Assembly: GCA_013695685.1 (NCBI GenBank)
Contig: JACCZY010000097.1
Location: 1 to 35,108, forward strand
Length of the DNA: 35,108 nt
Reading direction: 5' to 3'
Origin: Geodermatophilaceae bacterium
Lineage (GTDB): Bacteria; Actinomycetota; Actinomycetes; Mycobacteriales; Geodermatophilaceae
A model generated the notes under the pieces. It had not been told where the DNA came from, made no database searches, and saw only the letters and a list, made by a program, of their open reading frames with translations. Below, in pieces: positions 6,522 to 30,496 of the stretch. Position 1 is the stretch's first letter. Every line of letters begins with the position of its first letter. Made by a program: the position numbers and the translations under genes.

Positions 6522-7220
6522 TCAGCGACGCTCCTCACGCTGCTTGCACGCGAGGCACAGGGTCGCCCCGGGGAATGCCTGCAGCCGCGCCTTGGCGATC
6601 GGCTTGCCGCAGCTCTCACACAGCCCGTACCGGCCTTCGTCGACGCGCTCCATCGCGCGCTCGAGCTGGCTGATCAGGTCCCGCCGGTTCTTCGCCAGCG
6701 ACATCTCGTGCTCACGCTCGAACGTCTTACTGCCGGCATCGGCCTGGTCGTCGCCGGCGCTGTCGCTGGCCTGGGACTGCAGCTCGTCGATGGCCCGCAG
6801 GGTCTGCTCGTAGTCCGCCCGCATCTGGGTGAGCTGACCGTCCAGGTCCTTTCGTACGGCGGCCAGCTCGCGCGCTGACCATCCCTCCGGGGGACCGCCC
6901 GGTGTCTGCCCCGATTTGTTCGCGGACGCTGACTTCGGGGCCGGAGCCTTCGCGGCCGGAGCCTTCGGGTTCGGCGCCGACTTCTTCGCCGGCGCCGACT
7001 TCACCGGGGCAGACTTCTTGGCCGGAGCCTTCTTCGCGGGCGTCGACTTGCCGGCGGGGGCCGCCTTCCTCGCGGGCGCAGCCTGCTTCGCCGGGGCAGA
7101 CTTCGCCGACGTCGACTTCTTCGCCCCGGCAGACTTCGCCCCGGCAGACTTAGTGGCGGCGGACTTCCTCGCCGCGAGGGCGGCTTTCGTCCCGGTGGCC
7201 GCAGCCGAACTCTTCGCCAC
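6522..7220 (-). CDS. DksA/TraR family C4-type zinc-finger protein with long Lys/Ala/Ser/Pro-rich N-terminal tail
   Basis: C-terminal RYGLCESCGKPIAKARLQAFPGATLCLACKQRE (C4 zinc finger); about 103-aa low-complexity tail from GTG at 7220 (VAKSSAAATGTKAAL...). Confidence 0.9.
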   Translation of the reverse strand: MAKSSAAATGTKAALAARKSAATKSAGAKSAGAKKSTSAKSAPAKQAAPARKAAPAGKSTPAKKAPAKKSAPVKSAPAKKSAPNPKAPAAKAPAPKSASANKSGQTPGGPPEGWSARELAAVRKDLDGQLTQMRADYEQTLRAIDELQSQASDSAGDDQADAGSKTFEREHEMSLAKNRRDLISQLERAMERVDEGRYGLCESCGKPIAKARLQAFPGATLCLACKQREERR

Positions 7221-7344
7221 TCTCGCCGTCCTATTCTGCGCACCACCAGGGATGGGCGCCCTGCGCTTCTCGGAAGGCGCCCACCATACGTATGCCCGCC
7301 ACCCTGCACAACGCAACCCAAGGCTCACCGGCGCCAGAGAACGC

Positions 7345-8838
7345 TCAGGCGCGTGCCTGGCCGTCCTCCCCGCGCCAGCTGGCCAGCCGCCCGGCCCGGC
7401 TGACCGCGCGCAACCGCAGCTCGGTGCGTTCCCGAACGGCGCTCGCGGTGACCACCAGCAACTGGTCACCGCGCAGGATGCGGGTGGTGGGGGTGGGAAC
7501 GAAGGACCTGCCGTCGCGTACGACGAGGGTCACGGCCGCATCCTCGGGCAACCGCAGCTCGGACACGTACACGCCGTGCAGCCGCGACGCATCGGGCACG
7601 CGCACCTGCAGCAGATCCGCGCCGAGCTCCTCCAGGGGCGCGGACTCCACCTCCACCTCCCGGGTCTCGGTGGTCCCCGCGACGCCGAGCAGCCGCGCCA
7701 CCGCGGGCAACGTGGTGCCTTGAACGATGGTGAAGACGACAACGAGCACAAAGACGATGTCGAAGATCTGCAGCGCCCCCGGCACCGCCTCGGTCACCGG
7801 GATGGTGGCGAACACGATCGGCACGGCGCCGCGCAGACCCGCCCAGGACACAAAGGCCTGCTCCCGGAGCGGCACCCGGAACGGCAGCATCGAGACGAGC
7901 ACCGACAGGGGGCGCGCCAGCAGCAGCAGTCCCAGCCCGATCACGACGGCGGGGACCAGGACCTGGGGCAGCCGCGAGGGGCTGACGAGCAGCCCGAGCA
8001 GCACGAACAGCCCGATCTGGGAGAGCCACGCCAGCCCTTCGGCGAACCCGAGGGTGGCCCGCCGGTGCGGCAGCCGGGCGTTGCCCAGCACCAGTCCGGC
8101 GACGTACACCGCCAGGAAGCCGGAGGCATGCGCGACGTCCGCGCCGGCGTAGGCCATCACGCAGAACGCGACGGTCGCGAGCGGGTACAGACCGGAGGCC
8201 GGCAACGCGCTGCGGCGCAATACCCACATGCCCAACAACCCCGCGGCGATCCCGATGACGGCACCGGCCACCAATTCGTACAACAGCAGCCCACCAGCCC
8301 CGGGCAGCGACATCAGCGCGTCGCTGGACAGCAGCACGACGACGATCACCACCGGCGCATCGTTGAAACCCGACTCGAGCTCGAGTGTGGCGGTCACCCG
8401 TCGCGGCAGGCCGAGACCGCGCAGCGTGGAGAACACCGCGGCGGCGTCGGTCGAGCTCACGATGGCCCCGAGCAGAAGACCGGTCTGCCATGAGATGTCG
8501 AGGGCCAGTACGGCGACGGCGCCGGTCACGCCGATGCTTACGGCGACGCCGAGAGTGGACAGCACGATGCTGCGCGGCACCGCGTCTCGGACGGCGACCC
8601 AGCGGGTGGTCAACCCTCCCTCGGCCAGGATGATCACCAGAGCGCTGATGCCCAGCGTTCGAGTCAGCTCGGCGTCGTCGAAGTCGAGTCCGATGACGGA
8701 CTCACCCAGCAGGATGCCGAGGCCCAGGTAGAGCAGCAGGCTCGGCAGGCCCAGGCGGGTCGAGACCCGAACCGCCAGCGCACCCGCGAGCACCACTACG
8801 GCGCCGACGAGCAGGAAGAGGCCGAGGTTCTCGCTCAC
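7345..8838 (-). CDS. CPA1-type Na+/H+ or K+/H+ antiporter (NhaP2/CvrA-like) with C-terminal RCK_C-like domain
   Basis: 497 aa; GLGILLGE, LLGAIVSSTDAAAVFSTLRGLGLPRRVTATLELESGFNDAPVVIVVV; C-terminal DLLQVRVPDASRLHGVYVSELRLPEDAAVTLVVRDGRSFVPTPTTRILRGDQLLVVT resembles TrkA_C. Confidence 0.92.
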   Translation of the reverse strand: MSENLGLFLLVGAVVVLAGALAVRVSTRLGLPSLLLYLGLGILLGESVIGLDFDDAELTRTLGISALVIILAEGGLTTRWVAVRDAVPRSIVLSTLGVAVSIGVTGAVAVLALDISWQTGLLLGAIVSSTDAAAVFSTLRGLGLPRRVTATLELESGFNDAPVVIVVVLLSSDALMSLPGAGGLLLYELVAGAVIGIAAGLLGMWVLRRSALPASGLYPLATVAFCVMAYAGADVAHASGFLAVYVAGLVLGNARLPHRRATLGFAEGLAWLSQIGLFVLLGLLVSPSRLPQVLVPAVVIGLGLLLLARPLSVLVSMLPFRVPLREQAFVSWAGLRGAVPIVFATIPVTEAVPGALQIFDIVFVLVVVFTIVQGTTLPAVARLLGVAGTTETREVEVESAPLEELGADLLQVRVPDASRLHGVYVSELRLPEDAAVTLVVRDGRSFVPTPTTRILRGDQLLVVTASAVRERTELRLRAVSRAGRLASWRGEDGQARA

Positions 8839-8971
8839 TCGCGGCCTCCCATGTGCCGGGATTGTTCCCTATCTCGGTCGCCGCCCCGAGCGCGTGGCGG
8901 CTACCATCGCTGTCTGCGCTGACGGGACACCGACCGAAGATCACCTGAGACGAGACGATGGAGCGGCACTG

Positions 8972-11900
8972 ATGTCGGGACAGTCGCCGTTCACCCCGTT
9001 ACCCCCCCAGGTCGACCTGCCGGCACTCGAGCACGAGGTGCTGCAGCGCTGGCACGAGGGCAAGGTCTTCCAGCGGTCCCTGGAGGCCTCGGCCGGCCGG
9101 CCACCCTGGGTCTTCTACGAGGGCCCGCCGACCGCGAACGGCAGGCCGGGCGTCCACCACATCGAGGCGCGGACCTTCAAGGACGTCTTCCCGCGCTACC
9201 GGACGATGAAGGGGTACCACGTCCCGCGCCGGGCCGGCTGGGACTGCCACGGGCTGCCGGTCGAGCTGGCGGTGGAGACCGAACTCGGCTTCACCGGCAA
9301 GAAGGACATCGAGGCCCACGGCGTCGCCGCGTTCAACGCCAAGTGCCGGGAGTCGGTGCACCGCCACGTCGACGAGTGGGAGTCGTTGACCGAGCGGATG
9401 GGCTTCTGGGTCGACATGTCCGAGGCCTACTGGACGATGGACCCGGCCTACATCGAGAGCGTGTGGTGGTCGCTCAAGGTCATCTTCGACAAGGGGCTGC
9501 TGGTCGAGGACTACCGGGTGGCGCCGTACTGTCCGCGGTGCGGAACCGGACTGTCCGACCACGAGGTGGCGCAGGGCTACGAGACGGTGGTCGACCCGTC
9601 GGTCTACGTCCGCTTCCCTGTCACCAGCGGCGAGTGGGCCGGCCGCGCCGACCTCCTGGTCTGGACCACGACACCGTGGACCCTGGTGTCCAACACCGCG
9701 GTCGCCGTACACCCCGAGGTGACGTACGTCGTAGCGCGCACCGGTGACAGCACTTTCGTGGTGGCCGAGCCGCTGTTCGAGCGGGTGCTCGGCACCGACG
9801 TCGAGGTGCTCGCCCGGATGGGCGGCACAGAACTGGAGCGGACGTCGTACGCCCGGCCGTTCGACCTGGTCGACATCCCGGACGCGCACTACGTCATCAC
9901 CGCGCCGTACGTCACCACCAGCGACGGCACCGGACTCGTGCACCAGTCCCCCGCCTTCGGTGCCGACGACCTCGCCGCCACCCGCGGTTACGGGATGCCG
10001 GTGGTCAACCCGGTCGGCCGGGACGGCCGGTTCGCCGACGGGCTGGACCTCGTCGGCGGCGTGTTCTTCAAGACCGCTGACGCCGCCCTCGTGGCGGACC
10101 TGCGCGCCCGCGGGCTGCTCTTCCGGTCGGAGGACTACGAGCACTCCTACCCGCACTGCTGGCGCTGCCACACGCCGCTCATGTACTACGCCCTGCCGTC
10201 CTGGTACATCAGGACCACCGCGGTCAAGGACAAGCTGCTGGCCGAGAACGAGCGGACCGACTGGCACCCGGCGAACATCAAGTACGGCCGGTACGGCGAC
10301 TGGCTCCGGAACAACGTGGACTGGGCGCTGTCCCGCGACCGGTACTGGGGTACGCCGCTGCCGATCTGGCGCTGCCCCGACGGGCACGACACCTGCGTCG
10401 GGTCGCTCGCCGAGCTGTCCACCTTGGTCGGCTCCGACGTGTCCACTGTGGACCCGCACCGGCCGTACGTCGACGCGATCACGCTGCCGTGTCCGGTGTG
10501 CGCTCAGACCGCGGGCCGGGTGCCGCAGGTGATCGACGCGTGGTACGACGCCGGCTCCATGTCCTTCGCCCAGTGGGGGGCCCCGCACCGCAACAACGAG
10601 CTGTTCGAGGCCGCCTTTCCCGGGCAGTTCATCTGCGAGGCCATCGACCAGACCCGCGGTTGGTTCTACACGATGATGGTCGTACCCACCGTTGTGTTCG
10701 GTCGGTCGTCGTACGAGACCGTGCTCTGCCTCGGCCACATCCTGGCCGAAGACGGCCGCAAGATGAGCAAACACCTCGGCAACATCCTCGAGCCGCTGCC
10801 GCTGATGGATCGACACGGGGCAGACGCTGTGCGCTGGTTCATGGCCACGAGCGGCTCCCCGTGGTCCGGACGACGGATCGGGCACGCCGCGTTGGACGAC
10901 GTCGTCCGCAAGGTGCTCCTGACGTACTGGAACACCGCGTCGTTCTTCACCCTCTACGCGGCGGCCGCCGATTACGACCCTTCGGCGGCAGACTCACCCC
11001 CGCTCGGAGAACGGCCGCTGCTGGACCGGTGGCTGGCCGCTGAGGTGGCAGCCCTCGTGTCGGACGTGGACGACGCGATGTCGTCGTTCGACACCGTGCT
11101 GGCCGGCCGGCGGCTGGCCGGCTTCATCGACGACCTGTCCAACTGGTACGTGCGGCGGTCCAGGCGTCGGTTCTGGGACGGCGATCCGGCCGCGTTCGCG
11201 ACCCTGCGGGACGCGCTGGACGTGCTGACCAGGCTGCTCGCCCCGCTGGTGCCGTTCATCACCGAGCGGGTCTGGTCGGCGGTGAGTGCCGGCGTCGTTC
11301 CGGGAGCGCCCGATTCGGTCCACCTGGCGGACTGGCCGGTCCCCGGCCACGACGACACCGAACTGCGCGGGCGGATGGCGCTGGTGCGGCGGCTGGTGGA
11401 GTTGGGCCGGGCCGCCCGGACCCAGTCCAAGGTGCGGACCCGGCAGCCCCTCGGCCGGGCGCTCGTGGCGGCGCCCGGCTGGGCGGCGCTGCCCGAGGAG
11501 TTGCGCGCGCAGGTGGCCGACGAACTCAACGTGCAGGCCGTCGAATCGCTGGAGCGGGACGGTGACGAACTCATCGACGTCGGCATCAAGGCCAACTTCC
11601 GCGTCCTGGGCCGTCGCTTCGGCAAGGATGTCCAGGCAGTCGCCGCAGCCATCGCCGGCGCCAATCCGGCGGCGGCGGCGGCGGCGCTGCGCGCCGGGAC
11701 CGCGACTGTCACCGTCGGCGGCGAACGGGTCACGCTCGACGCCGACGAGGTGATCGTGACCGAGACGCCGCGCGCCGGATGGGCGGTAGCCAGCGAGCAC
11801 GGGGAAAGTCTCGCCCTCGACCTCACCCTCACCCCACAGCTGCGCCGCGCCGGTCTGGCCCGTGAGGTCGTCCGCGCGGTGCAGGAGGCACGTAAGAGCA

Positions 11901-12100
11901 GCGGCCTGTCGATCAGCGACCGGATCGCGCTGTGGTGGCTGGCCGACGGCGAGGCTGCCACGGCGCTGACCGAGCACGAGGCGACGGTGACCGCCGAGGT
12001 GCTGGCGACGTCGTACACCAACGCCGAGCCGCCCGACGCCGACCTGCCCGGTTTCAGCGTCGAGCCGGGGATCTCGTTCTGGCTTACCCGCGCCGGCTGA
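8972..12100 (+). CDS. ileS: isoleucyl-tRNA synthetase, IleRS2-like with altered HIGH motif (GVHH)
   Basis: FYEGPPTANGRPGVHHIEARTFKDVFPRYRTMKGYHVPRRAGWDCHGLPVE, VAPYCPRCGTGLSDHEVAQGY, WVDMSEAYWTMDPAYIESVWWSL, GRKMSKHLGNILEP. ATG at 8972 preceded by GGAG. Confidence 0.96.
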   Translation: MSGQSPFTPLPPQVDLPALEHEVLQRWHEGKVFQRSLEASAGRPPWVFYEGPPTANGRPGVHHIEARTFKDVFPRYRTMKGYHVPRRAGWDCHGLPVELAVETELGFTGKKDIEAHGVAAFNAKCRESVHRHVDEWESLTERMGFWVDMSEAYWTMDPAYIESVWWSLKVIFDKGLLVEDYRVAPYCPRCGTGLSDHEVAQGYETVVDPSVYVRFPVTSGEWAGRADLLVWTTTPWTLVSNTAVAVHPEVTYVVARTGDSTFVVAEPLFERVLGTDVEVLARMGGTELERTSYARPFDLVDIPDAHYVITAPYVTTSDGTGLVHQSPAFGADDLAATRGYGMPVVNPVGRDGRFADGLDLVGGVFFKTADAALVADLRARGLLFRSEDYEHSYPHCWRCHTPLMYYALPSWYIRTTAVKDKLLAENERTDWHPANIKYGRYGDWLRNNVDWALSRDRYWGTPLPIWRCPDGHDTCVGSLAELSTLVGSDVSTVDPHRPYVDAITLPCPVCAQTAGRVPQVIDAWYDAGSMSFAQWGAPHRNNELFEAAFPGQFICEAIDQTRGWFYTMMVVPTVVFGRSSYETVLCLGHILAEDGRKMSKHLGNILEPLPLMDRHGADAVRWFMATSGSPWSGRRIGHAALDDVVRKVLLTYWNTASFFTLYAAAADYDPSAADSPPLGERPLLDRWLAAEVAALVSDVDDAMSSFDTVLAGRRLAGFIDDLSNWYVRRSRRRFWDGDPAAFATLRDALDVLTRLLAPLVPFITERVWSAVSAGVVPGAPDSVHLADWPVPGHDDTELRGRMALVRRLVELGRAARTQSKVRTRQPLGRALVAAPGWAALPEELRAQVADELNVQAVESLERDGDELIDVGIKANFRVLGRRFGKDVQAVAAAIAGANPAAAAAALRAGTATVTVGGERVTLDADEVIVTETPRAGWAVASEHGESLALDLTLTPQLRRAGLAREVVRAVQEARKSSGLSISDRIALWWLADGEAATALTEHEATVTAEVLATSYTNAEPPDADLPGFSVEPGISFWLTRAG

Positions 12101-12111
12101 TCGGCTCCGGT

Positions 12112-12843
12112 TCAGTCCTCGGGCGGGTTGGCGCTGTTCTGCGCCGGGCCGGCCGACTGCCCGGCGCCGACAGGGCGCTGCTCACCGGTCGGCTCCCCGG
12201 AAGCACTGACGTCCAGCTCTCGCAGCTGCGACTCCAGGTAGGACTTGAGCCGGGTTCGGTACTCCCGCTCGAACGTGCGTAGGTCCTCGATCTGCTGCTC
12301 CAAGGAGGTCCTGCGCTGCTCCAAGGCCCCGATGACCTCCGTCCGCTTGCGCTCGGCGTCCTCGGCCACCGTCTGGGCACGAGTCTCGGCCTCGCTCAGC
12401 ATCTCCTCGGACTTCGACGTCGAGTCGGAGATCATCTGCTCGCTGGACGTGCGCGCGTCGGCCAGCAGCCGGTCGGCCTGCGCCTTGGCCTCGCCCACGT
12501 GCCGGTCGGCGGTCTCGGTGGCCAGCGCCAGCATCCGGGTGGCCTGGCTCAGTTCGTCGCCGTCGCCGACGACGGCGCGCTCCTCGGGTACCTGCTCCTT
12601 GGTGATGCTCACGCCCGACGTGGCATCCGGCGGCGGCGCTGCCTGGTCCTCTTCGGTCGAAACGGGGCGATCAGGGGTCTCGGCGGTCCGGGAGCGCAGT
12701 TCGTTGTTCTCCTCGATCAGCCGGGCGAACTCGGTCTCGACGAGATCCAAGAAGGCGTCCACCTCGTCCTCGTCGTAGCCCCGCTTGCCGATCGGTGGCT
12801 TCTTGAAGGCGACGTTGTGGACGTCGGCGGGGGTCAGCGGCAT
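12112..12843 (-). CDS. divIVA: DivIVA/Wag31 family polar growth/cell division protein
   Basis: MPLTPADVHNVAFKKPPIGKRGYDEDEVDAFLDLVETEFARLIEENNELR, then long coiled coil. Confidence 0.96.
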   Translation of the reverse strand: MPLTPADVHNVAFKKPPIGKRGYDEDEVDAFLDLVETEFARLIEENNELRSRTAETPDRPVSTEEDQAAPPPDATSGVSITKEQVPEERAVVGDGDELSQATRMLALATETADRHVGEAKAQADRLLADARTSSEQMISDSTSKSEEMLSEAETRAQTVAEDAERKRTEVIGALEQRRTSLEQQIEDLRTFEREYRTRLKSYLESQLRELDVSASGEPTGEQRPVGAGQSAGPAQNSANPPED

Positions 12844-12925
12844 GCCATCACCTCGAAGGATTGGTCGGGTACAGCAGCGTACGGAGGGCAGTCGCCCATG
12901 CACTCATTGCACGCAAGGTACTCGG

Positions 12926-13231: not shown

Positions 13232-13783
13232 TCAGCTCTGATTGAAGAAGCCGCCCTCGACGATTCTGGCCTTGTCCTCGGCCGTGACTGAGACATTCTG
13301 CGGCGACAGCAGGAACACCTTGTTCGTCACACGCTCGATGCTACCGCGCAGGCCGAAGGACAGGCCGGCGGCGAAGTCCACCAGCCGCTTGGCGTCGGCG
13401 TCGTCCATCTCCGTCAGGTTCATGATCACCGGTACACCGTCGCGGAAGTGCTCCCCGATGGTGCGTGCCTCGTTGTACGTGCGCGGGTGCAGCGTCGTGA
13501 TCCGGTAGGTGCCTTGCTCGCTGTGGCCCATCACGGCGACCGGATGCTTCGGCTCGTATCCGGCGGGATTCGGGGGCTCCGGCGCACCGGCCCAGACCCG
13601 AGCCGCCCGCTCCGCGCGGGGCCGTCTCGCCGGCGCGGCCGGCTCGCCGGCGTAGGAGTCCGCGGCGTAGGGGTCCGCGCCGTGGGTGTTGCTCGCGGCG
13701 TAAGCCCGGTCGTCGTCGGAGTGGCGGTCGTCTTCCTCGACGAGACCGAGGTAGACACCCATCTTGCGCATGGCACCGGCCAT
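13232..13783 (-). CDS. sepF: cell division protein SepF
   Basis: [82 protein letters not shown]. Confidence 0.96.
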
Positions 13784-15269: not shown

Positions 15270-16397
15270 TCAGGATCTCAGAAACTCGGGGATGTCGAGG
15301 TCGTCGTCCAGCTCGTCCACGGTGTAGGCGCCGTGTGCGGCGGCCGGCCGCGGCAGCGGCGGATAGCCATTCGTCGTGGTGACCGGACGCGCCACGGCCG
15401 CCGGCTCCTGTTCGGCGGCAGGTCTCACCTCGGTCTTTCGGAAGGTCGGCTTGCCGGTGTCGAAGCCGGCCGCGATGACCGTGACGCGGACCTCGTCGCC
15501 CAGCGCATCGTCGATCACCGCACCGAAGATGATGTTGGCCTCGGGGTGAGCGGAGTCGGCCACCAGCGATGCTGCCTCGTTGATCTCGAACAGGCCGAGG
15601 TCCGAACCGCCCTGGATCGACAGCAGCACGCCGTGGGCACCCTCCATCGACGCCTCCAGCAGTGGACTGGCCACTGCCTGCTCGGCGGCGGTGATCGCGC
15701 GGTTCTCTCCCCGCGCACTACCGATTCCCATCAGCGCGCTGCCGGCGCCGGACATCACCGACTTCACGTCGGCGAAGTCGAGGTTGATCAGCCCCGGCGT
15801 GGTGATCAGGTCGGTGATGCCCTGGACACCGGAGAGCAGCACCTGGTCGGCGGTCCGGAACGCATCCATCACGCTGACGTTGCGGTCACCGAGCTGCAGC
15901 AGCCGGTCGTTCGGGATCACGATGAGGGTGTCGCACTCGTCGCGCAGCTCGCCGATGCCGGTCTCAGCCTGGGTGGCCCGGCGCTTGCCCTCGAACGCGA
16001 ACGGCCGGGTCACCACGCCGATGGTCAGCGCACCCAGCTTGCGCGAGATGCCCGCCACGACCGGTGCCCCGCCGGTGCCGGTACCGCCGCCCTCACCGGC
16101 GGTCACGAACACCATGTCGGCGCCCTTGAGGACCTCCTCGATCTCCTCGCGGTGATCCTCGGCGGCCTTGCGGCCGACCTCGGGCTGCGCCCCGGCGCCG
16201 AGACCGCGGGTGAGTTCCCTGCCGATGTCGAGCTTGACGTCGGCGTCGCTCATCAACAGCGCCTGGGCGTCGGTGTTGATAGCGATGAACTCGACCCCCT
16301 TGAGGCCGACCTCGATCATCCGGTTGACGGCATTGACGCCGCCCCCGCCGATCCCGACGACCTTGATGACCGCCAGGTAGTTGTGCGGAGCTGTCAT
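15270..16397 (-). CDS. ftsZ: cell division protein FtsZ
   Basis: [74 protein letters not shown]-terminal [11 protein letters not shown]. Confidence 0.99.
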
Positions 16398-30304: not shown

Positions 30305-30384
30305 CGGGCGCCTTTCGGGTGCTGTGATGCTTCGGTGGTGGCTTCTCGTGGTCTTCGTGGTGACCTGTCGCGGCCGTATCGATC

Positions 30385-30451
30385 GGTCCCCGCCCGAGGC
30401 ACCACCTGGCGCCGGGGAAGGTGCGTCAGGGGGCGCCCTCGGGGGGAGACC
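30385..30451 (-). ncRNA. structured RNA leader between mraZ and rsmH; candidate mraW RNA motif
   Basis: Minus strand GGTCTCCCCCCGAGG (30451-30437) pairs with CCTCGGGCGGGGACC (30399-30385): 15-bp helix with one U.G wobble and one C.C mismatch, enclosing an inner CACCU/AGGUG hairpin and a CUUCCCC sequence; located in the rsmH (mraW) leader. Confidence 0.5.
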
Positions 30452-30496
30452 GACGGCTACGGACGGGGTGGATCCGCCTCGCCGTCCACTGGCTCG

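Follow-up and report, generated by a model that had tools for sequence, protein, structure and literature searches.

An isoleucyl-tRNA synthetase (IleRS) with a rearranged class I signature, GVHH in place of HxGH, is encoded in the window (the whole stretch of DNA that was analysed, 35,108 nucleotides of contig JACCZY010000097.1 from a Geodermatophilaceae bacterium). The locus raises the question of whether this enzyme came to the strain as a mupirocin resistance form or belongs to its lineage, and what the motif implies for the response to the drug. In our assessment, with a probability of about 0.94, it is an ordinary housekeeping type-2 IleRS (IleRS2) with a natural GxHH motif, which was inherited in one actinobacterial clade including Streptomyces and would confer hyper-resistance through a clash between the motif and the drug.

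The ileS gene and its GVHH motif

The gene and its motif region are as follows.

8972..12100, + strand: ileS, type-2 isoleucyl-tRNA synthetase, 1042 aa (TIGR00392, 854.9 bits; best PDB match 8c8w)
9119..9166, + strand: EGPPTANGRPGVHHIE, a strand and the tip of helix alpha-1 in the catalytic core (ORF translation, alignment and predicted structure)
9149..9160, + strand: non-canonical class I signature GVHH (G60-V61-H62-H63) replacing HxGH (in-frame codons and alignment)

The mechanical ORF that contains ileS spans 8894-12100 on the + strand (1068 codons) and begins with GTG 8894, but translation probably starts at ATG 8972, which is preceded by GGAG and agrees with the starts of the homologs. 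The encoded protein is an ileS equivalog (NCBIfam: isoleucine--tRNA ligase), its TIGR00392 score exceeding the cut-off of 621.4 bits over residues 12-832. Neither a sigma-70-like promoter nor a terminator was called near the ileS start, and no T-box or other RNA control was found upstream by Rfam, whose sole match in the window was an mraW RNA.

The codons at 9149-9160 read GGC GTC CAC CAC, so residues 60-63 have the pattern that defines G/AxHH IleRS2 (Gly or Ala at position 1, His at positions 3 and 4). The phmmer alignment placed EGPPTANGRP-GVHH-IE of the window enzyme without gaps on EGPPTANGLP-GVHH-AL of 8c8w, and GVHH sits, again without a gap, on HVGH of the wild-type P. megaterium IleRS2 (EGPPTANGLP-HVGH-AL). 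A canonical HIGH motif shifted to another place is therefore absent, and alignment to IleRS2 references showed no HxGH elsewhere in the IleRS fold. In the AlphaFold2 model (mean pLDDT 84.7), helix alpha-1 starts at residue 61, so that the motif occupies the tip of the helix, its usual place in class I synthetases. The exchange of glycine and histidine at the HIGH position, claimed in the initial annotation, was thus confirmed by alignment, and its coordinates were exact.

In principle, GVHH could stem from an error in the reads or their assembly, or the gene could be a decayed or non-catalytic paralog, and the assembly is indeed a fragmented draft. Against this, the reading frame is intact over its full length with zero stops, the invariant family columns and conserved IleRS2 landmarks are kept, and the gene is the sole ileS in the genome. 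The same motif type also occurs in independent assemblies; those of same-genus relatives show GVHH (L005) and GTHH (L006), and the read-level error named at the outset as a possible refutation did not materialize. We regard the probability of error or decay as negligible.

IleRS type and comparison with known enzymes

The type-2 assignment made in the initial annotation agrees with both the PDB scores and the tree. PDB matches of the window IleRS scored 893-909 bits for IleRS2 vs 239-327 for IleRS1; the best by phmmer was 8c8w (E 3.4e-272, 909 bits), the other P. megaterium IleRS2 entries scored 893-899 bits, and 8c8w was also the top fold match of Foldseek against PDB. In the tree, the enzyme was split from 11 IleRS1 rows at a support of 100.

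The entry 8c8w is the hyper-resistant GVHH mutant of Priestia megaterium IleRS2 (PMC10485003), which has an identical GVHH, the same EGPPTANGxP context and about 41% identity to the window enzyme. It differs in being an engineered mutant; the wild type there has HVGH and coexists with IleRS1. Streptomyces griseus SgIleRS2 (PMC4861432, PMC10485003) is, like the window enzyme, a type-2 actinobacterial IleRS with a natural GxHH. Streptomyces orthologs are 64-68% identical to the window enzyme and have the gene order and the second signature KMSKH in common with it, whereas its GxHH has Val as the x residue where the sampled Streptomyces have Ala. Measurements on SgIleRS showed no tRNA-dependent pre-transfer editing. 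Deinococcus radiodurans IleRS2 also has a natural non-canonical motif, ALHH (PMC10485003), but its first motif residue is Ala and it belongs to another phylum.

The mupirocin-resistance enzymes MupA and MupB are type-2 IleRS relatives of the window enzyme, which is, in contrast, encoded by a chromosomal gene at a housekeeping locus. Identity with acquired MupA/MupB was rejected, as the scores were 729 and 704 bits against 1900-bit cut-offs (NF000257/NF000258).

Distribution and ancestry of the GxHH enzyme

The DNA pattern for G/AxHH (GPPxANGxx-[G/A]xHH) and its canonical equivalent are exact and strict, so their matches in at least 189 and at least 106 of the 398 Actinomycetota genomes, respectively, are lower bounds. 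A reversed control pattern gave none among the matches listed for these genomes. Some genomes match neither pattern, for example those with the odd IleRS variants described below. The nearest named relative was a Geodermatophilaceae MAG (82% identity), followed by Modestobacter, Blastococcus and Streptomyces (64-69%). At the relatives' loci, every IleRS with a readable motif had GxHH; the x residue was A in Streptomyces, and T or V in most of the others.

A maximum-likelihood tree was built from 78 sequences with the motif columns excluded. All 44 sampled GxHH enzymes of the window's type formed one clade (SH-aLRT 99), and canonical HYGH-type IleRS2 from other actinobacteria formed a separate one (support 99). 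Of the two origins first proposed, natural mupirocin-like exposure or a lineage trait, the latter is borne out by the phylum pattern and the tree.

The strain could instead have gained the resistance form recently, by horizontal transfer or by mutation under mupirocin, in place of a canonical housekeeping ileS. Two genomes of the same family (G018 and G025) carry a canonical-type HYGx IleRS2 instead of GxHH, and both IleRS2 types occur together, with one gene each, in three others (G060, G221 and G317), indicating that exchange between the types happens in the phylum. However, GxHH enzymes with 67-86% identity to that of the window occur in genomes of the same genus and in most genomes of the same family, the window IleRS groups with its own genus at a support of 100, and the flanking gene order is conserved even with distant GxHH relatives. 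Recent acquisition is thus considered very improbable. Under the preferred reading, the motif is inherited, with the enzyme lying within the single actinobacterial GxHH clade and at that clade's usual ileS locus.

Gene order around ileS

The flanking features in the window are listed below; the dcw cluster continues to about 28899 with murC, murG, ftsW, murD, mraY, murF, murE and a PBP gene.

6522..7469, - strand: TraR/DksA-type zinc-finger protein, conserved upstream neighbour of ileS (PF01258, 1.5e-14)
12112..12903, - strand: divIVA, convergent neighbour of ileS, conserved in relatives (PF05103, 1.2e-18)
13232..13783, - strand: sepF (PF04472, 4.3e-26)
15270..16397, - strand: ftsZ, near the dcw cluster end (PF00091/PF12327)
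30364-30468, - strand: mraW RNA, cis-regulatory element at the dcw cluster (Rfam, 54.8 bits)

Actinomadura keeps the order dnaE, traR-like, ileS, divIVA, sepF, yggS, yfiH, ftsZ, and Streptomyces and a Nocardioidaceae MAG share with it the segment from traR to ftsZ. The Nanopelagicales loci keep the same segment, and divIVA was not detected in them. Members of the family to which the window belongs have a Na+/H+ antiporter gene directly upstream of ileS. Where enough downstream sequence was available, divIVA was detectable in 60 of 84 loci, invariably on the other strand from ileS; with the shared gene order, this makes the divIVA side the normal home of GxHH ileS. The housekeeping position, initially regarded as the standout feature, is therefore not exceptional, as the same enzyme occupies the same locus in Streptomyces, Geodermatophilaceae and other relatives.

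Copy number in the genome

The genome assembly comprises 2.98 Mb in 289 contigs (98.8% complete, 2.9% contamination), and a profile search of this draft found one ileS over the cut-off. The two next ileS-profile matches score better as valS (542 and 460 bits), and the remaining ones are short and fall on other class I synthetases. By itself, the HxGH DNA pattern, with 145 matches, is too short to inform on a second ileS. These data support a single IleRS in the organism, as had been claimed, although gaps of the fragmented draft might hide a second ileS.

Two partial valS genes were observed on separate contigs (G000:C81 and G000:C92; L129 and L130), 61% identical over 647 aa and each cut by a contig end. 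This pair suggests either two real ValRS genes, a true duplicate, or contamination or mixing in the bin.

Relation of the motif to mupirocin hyper-resistance

The link between the motif and hyper-resistance, which the initial annotation had drawn, agrees with published mutagenesis. Among 163 IleRS2 sequences, Brkic et al. 2023 (PMC10485003) counted 86 with G/AxHH, and their mutagenesis in both directions showed that this motif causes mupirocin hyper-resistance. Changing ALHH of the D. radiodurans enzyme to HVGH lowered the Ki from 6.6 mM to 8.1 uM; conversely, HVGH to GVHH raised it from 0.20 to 35 uM in T. thermophilus (~175-fold) and from 1.08 to 460 uM in P. megaterium (~430-fold). Swapping the motif thus shifted Ki values by two to three orders of magnitude, and catalysis was affected moderately at most. 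A Ki of 10 mM was reported for S. griseus IleRS (Cvetesic et al. 2016, PMC4861432), which has the same non-canonical motif according to Brkic et al. (PMC10485003). A mupirocin Ki from high-micromolar to millimolar is expected of G/AxHH IleRS2 and is known for relatives of the window enzyme (PMC10485003, PMC4861432).

Mechanistically, the motif would shift back upon mupirocin binding and a motif histidine would clash with the drug, raising the Ki up to the millimolar range. Judging from the biochemistry of its relatives, the window enzyme is very likely mupirocin hyper-resistant; we infer that it is catalytically active and that the cell is resistant. As a caveat to this reading, the closest measured relative is a Streptomyces enzyme, and Streptomyces orthologs have the 64-68% identity given above. 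No relevant report turned up in a search for mupirocin literature on Geodermatophilaceae.

Retention of the motif might have nothing to do with mupirocin and instead reflect, for example, a change in editing or kinetics, in which case resistance would be a by-product. Such a cause bears on the reason for the motif's existence and is compatible with the main explanation, and the clade is widespread in the phylum, probably more widely than mupirocin exposure. However, motif swaps move the Ki by orders of magnitude while affecting catalysis at most moderately; we consider such a reason possible but rather unlikely.

Both the mechanism and its occurrence in actinobacteria have been published, including the case of a sole IleRS2 giving resistance (PMC10485003, citing PMC4861432), and the GxHH found here is a known, widespread lineage trait. 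The present case adds evidence that hyper-resistance by an altered HIGH motif is built into the housekeeping IleRS across a large part of Actinomycetota and is neither rare nor acquired, which is useful for interpreting mupirocin resistome calls.

The KMSKH and EA sites

Two further sites of the enzyme were located by alignment.

10637..10642, + strand: EA, residues 556-557, where IleRS1 has EG
10760..10774, + strand: second signature KMSKH, residues 597-601, where most other IleRS have KMSKS (a region of uncertainty in the structure model)

GxHH is paired with KMSKH in 109 aligned sequences, the window enzyme included, and the other GxHH enzymes have KMSKS or, once, RMSKS. The 28 GxHH/KMSKH sequences placed in the tree form one subclade (support 100), in which the window enzyme lies with those of Geodermatophilaceae, Jatrophihabitans, Streptomyces and other families; L168 has KMSKH outside this subclade. 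Within the KMSKS motif, constraint is generally lowest at the fifth position, so no functional claim is drawn for KMSKH. A functional coupling of the two changes in the subclade, which would give the enzyme catalytic or editing properties of its own in addition to mupirocin hyper-resistance, seems quite doubtful. KMSKH is not mentioned in the main text of PMC10485003.

The glycine of the IleRS1 EG contacts mupirocin in S. aureus IleRS1, and loss of this contact has been proposed for S. griseus (PMC4861432); the EA of the window enzyme matches that proposal.

Other IleRS variants in the phylum

Five sequences (L148, L193, L194, L196 and L197, from genomes G041, G162, G266, G236 and G170) formed a separate IleRS clade at a support of 100, with [G/A]VH[T/H] for HIGH, [E/P]MH[G/Y/K]S for KMSKS and FDxQGLW for WDxHGLP. 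The loss of the KMSKS lysines is striking. A pattern for this clade matched 13 of the 398 phylum genomes, and in G170 and G236 the altered-signature IleRS was the only ileS-type match among the matches listed. The clade possibly corresponds to the 'minor IleRS2 clade' described in PMC10485003.

A further set of sequences (L169, L171-L178, L180, L182, L183, L190 and L195) is of the IleRS1 type and mostly has HxGT, with the fourth His replaced by Thr, in several IleRS1 branches. Other fourth residues were also seen in HYGH-type IleRS2, namely in L185 and L191 (HYGN and HFGN) and in L135 (HYGA), where an error is possible, its draft genome being only partly complete.
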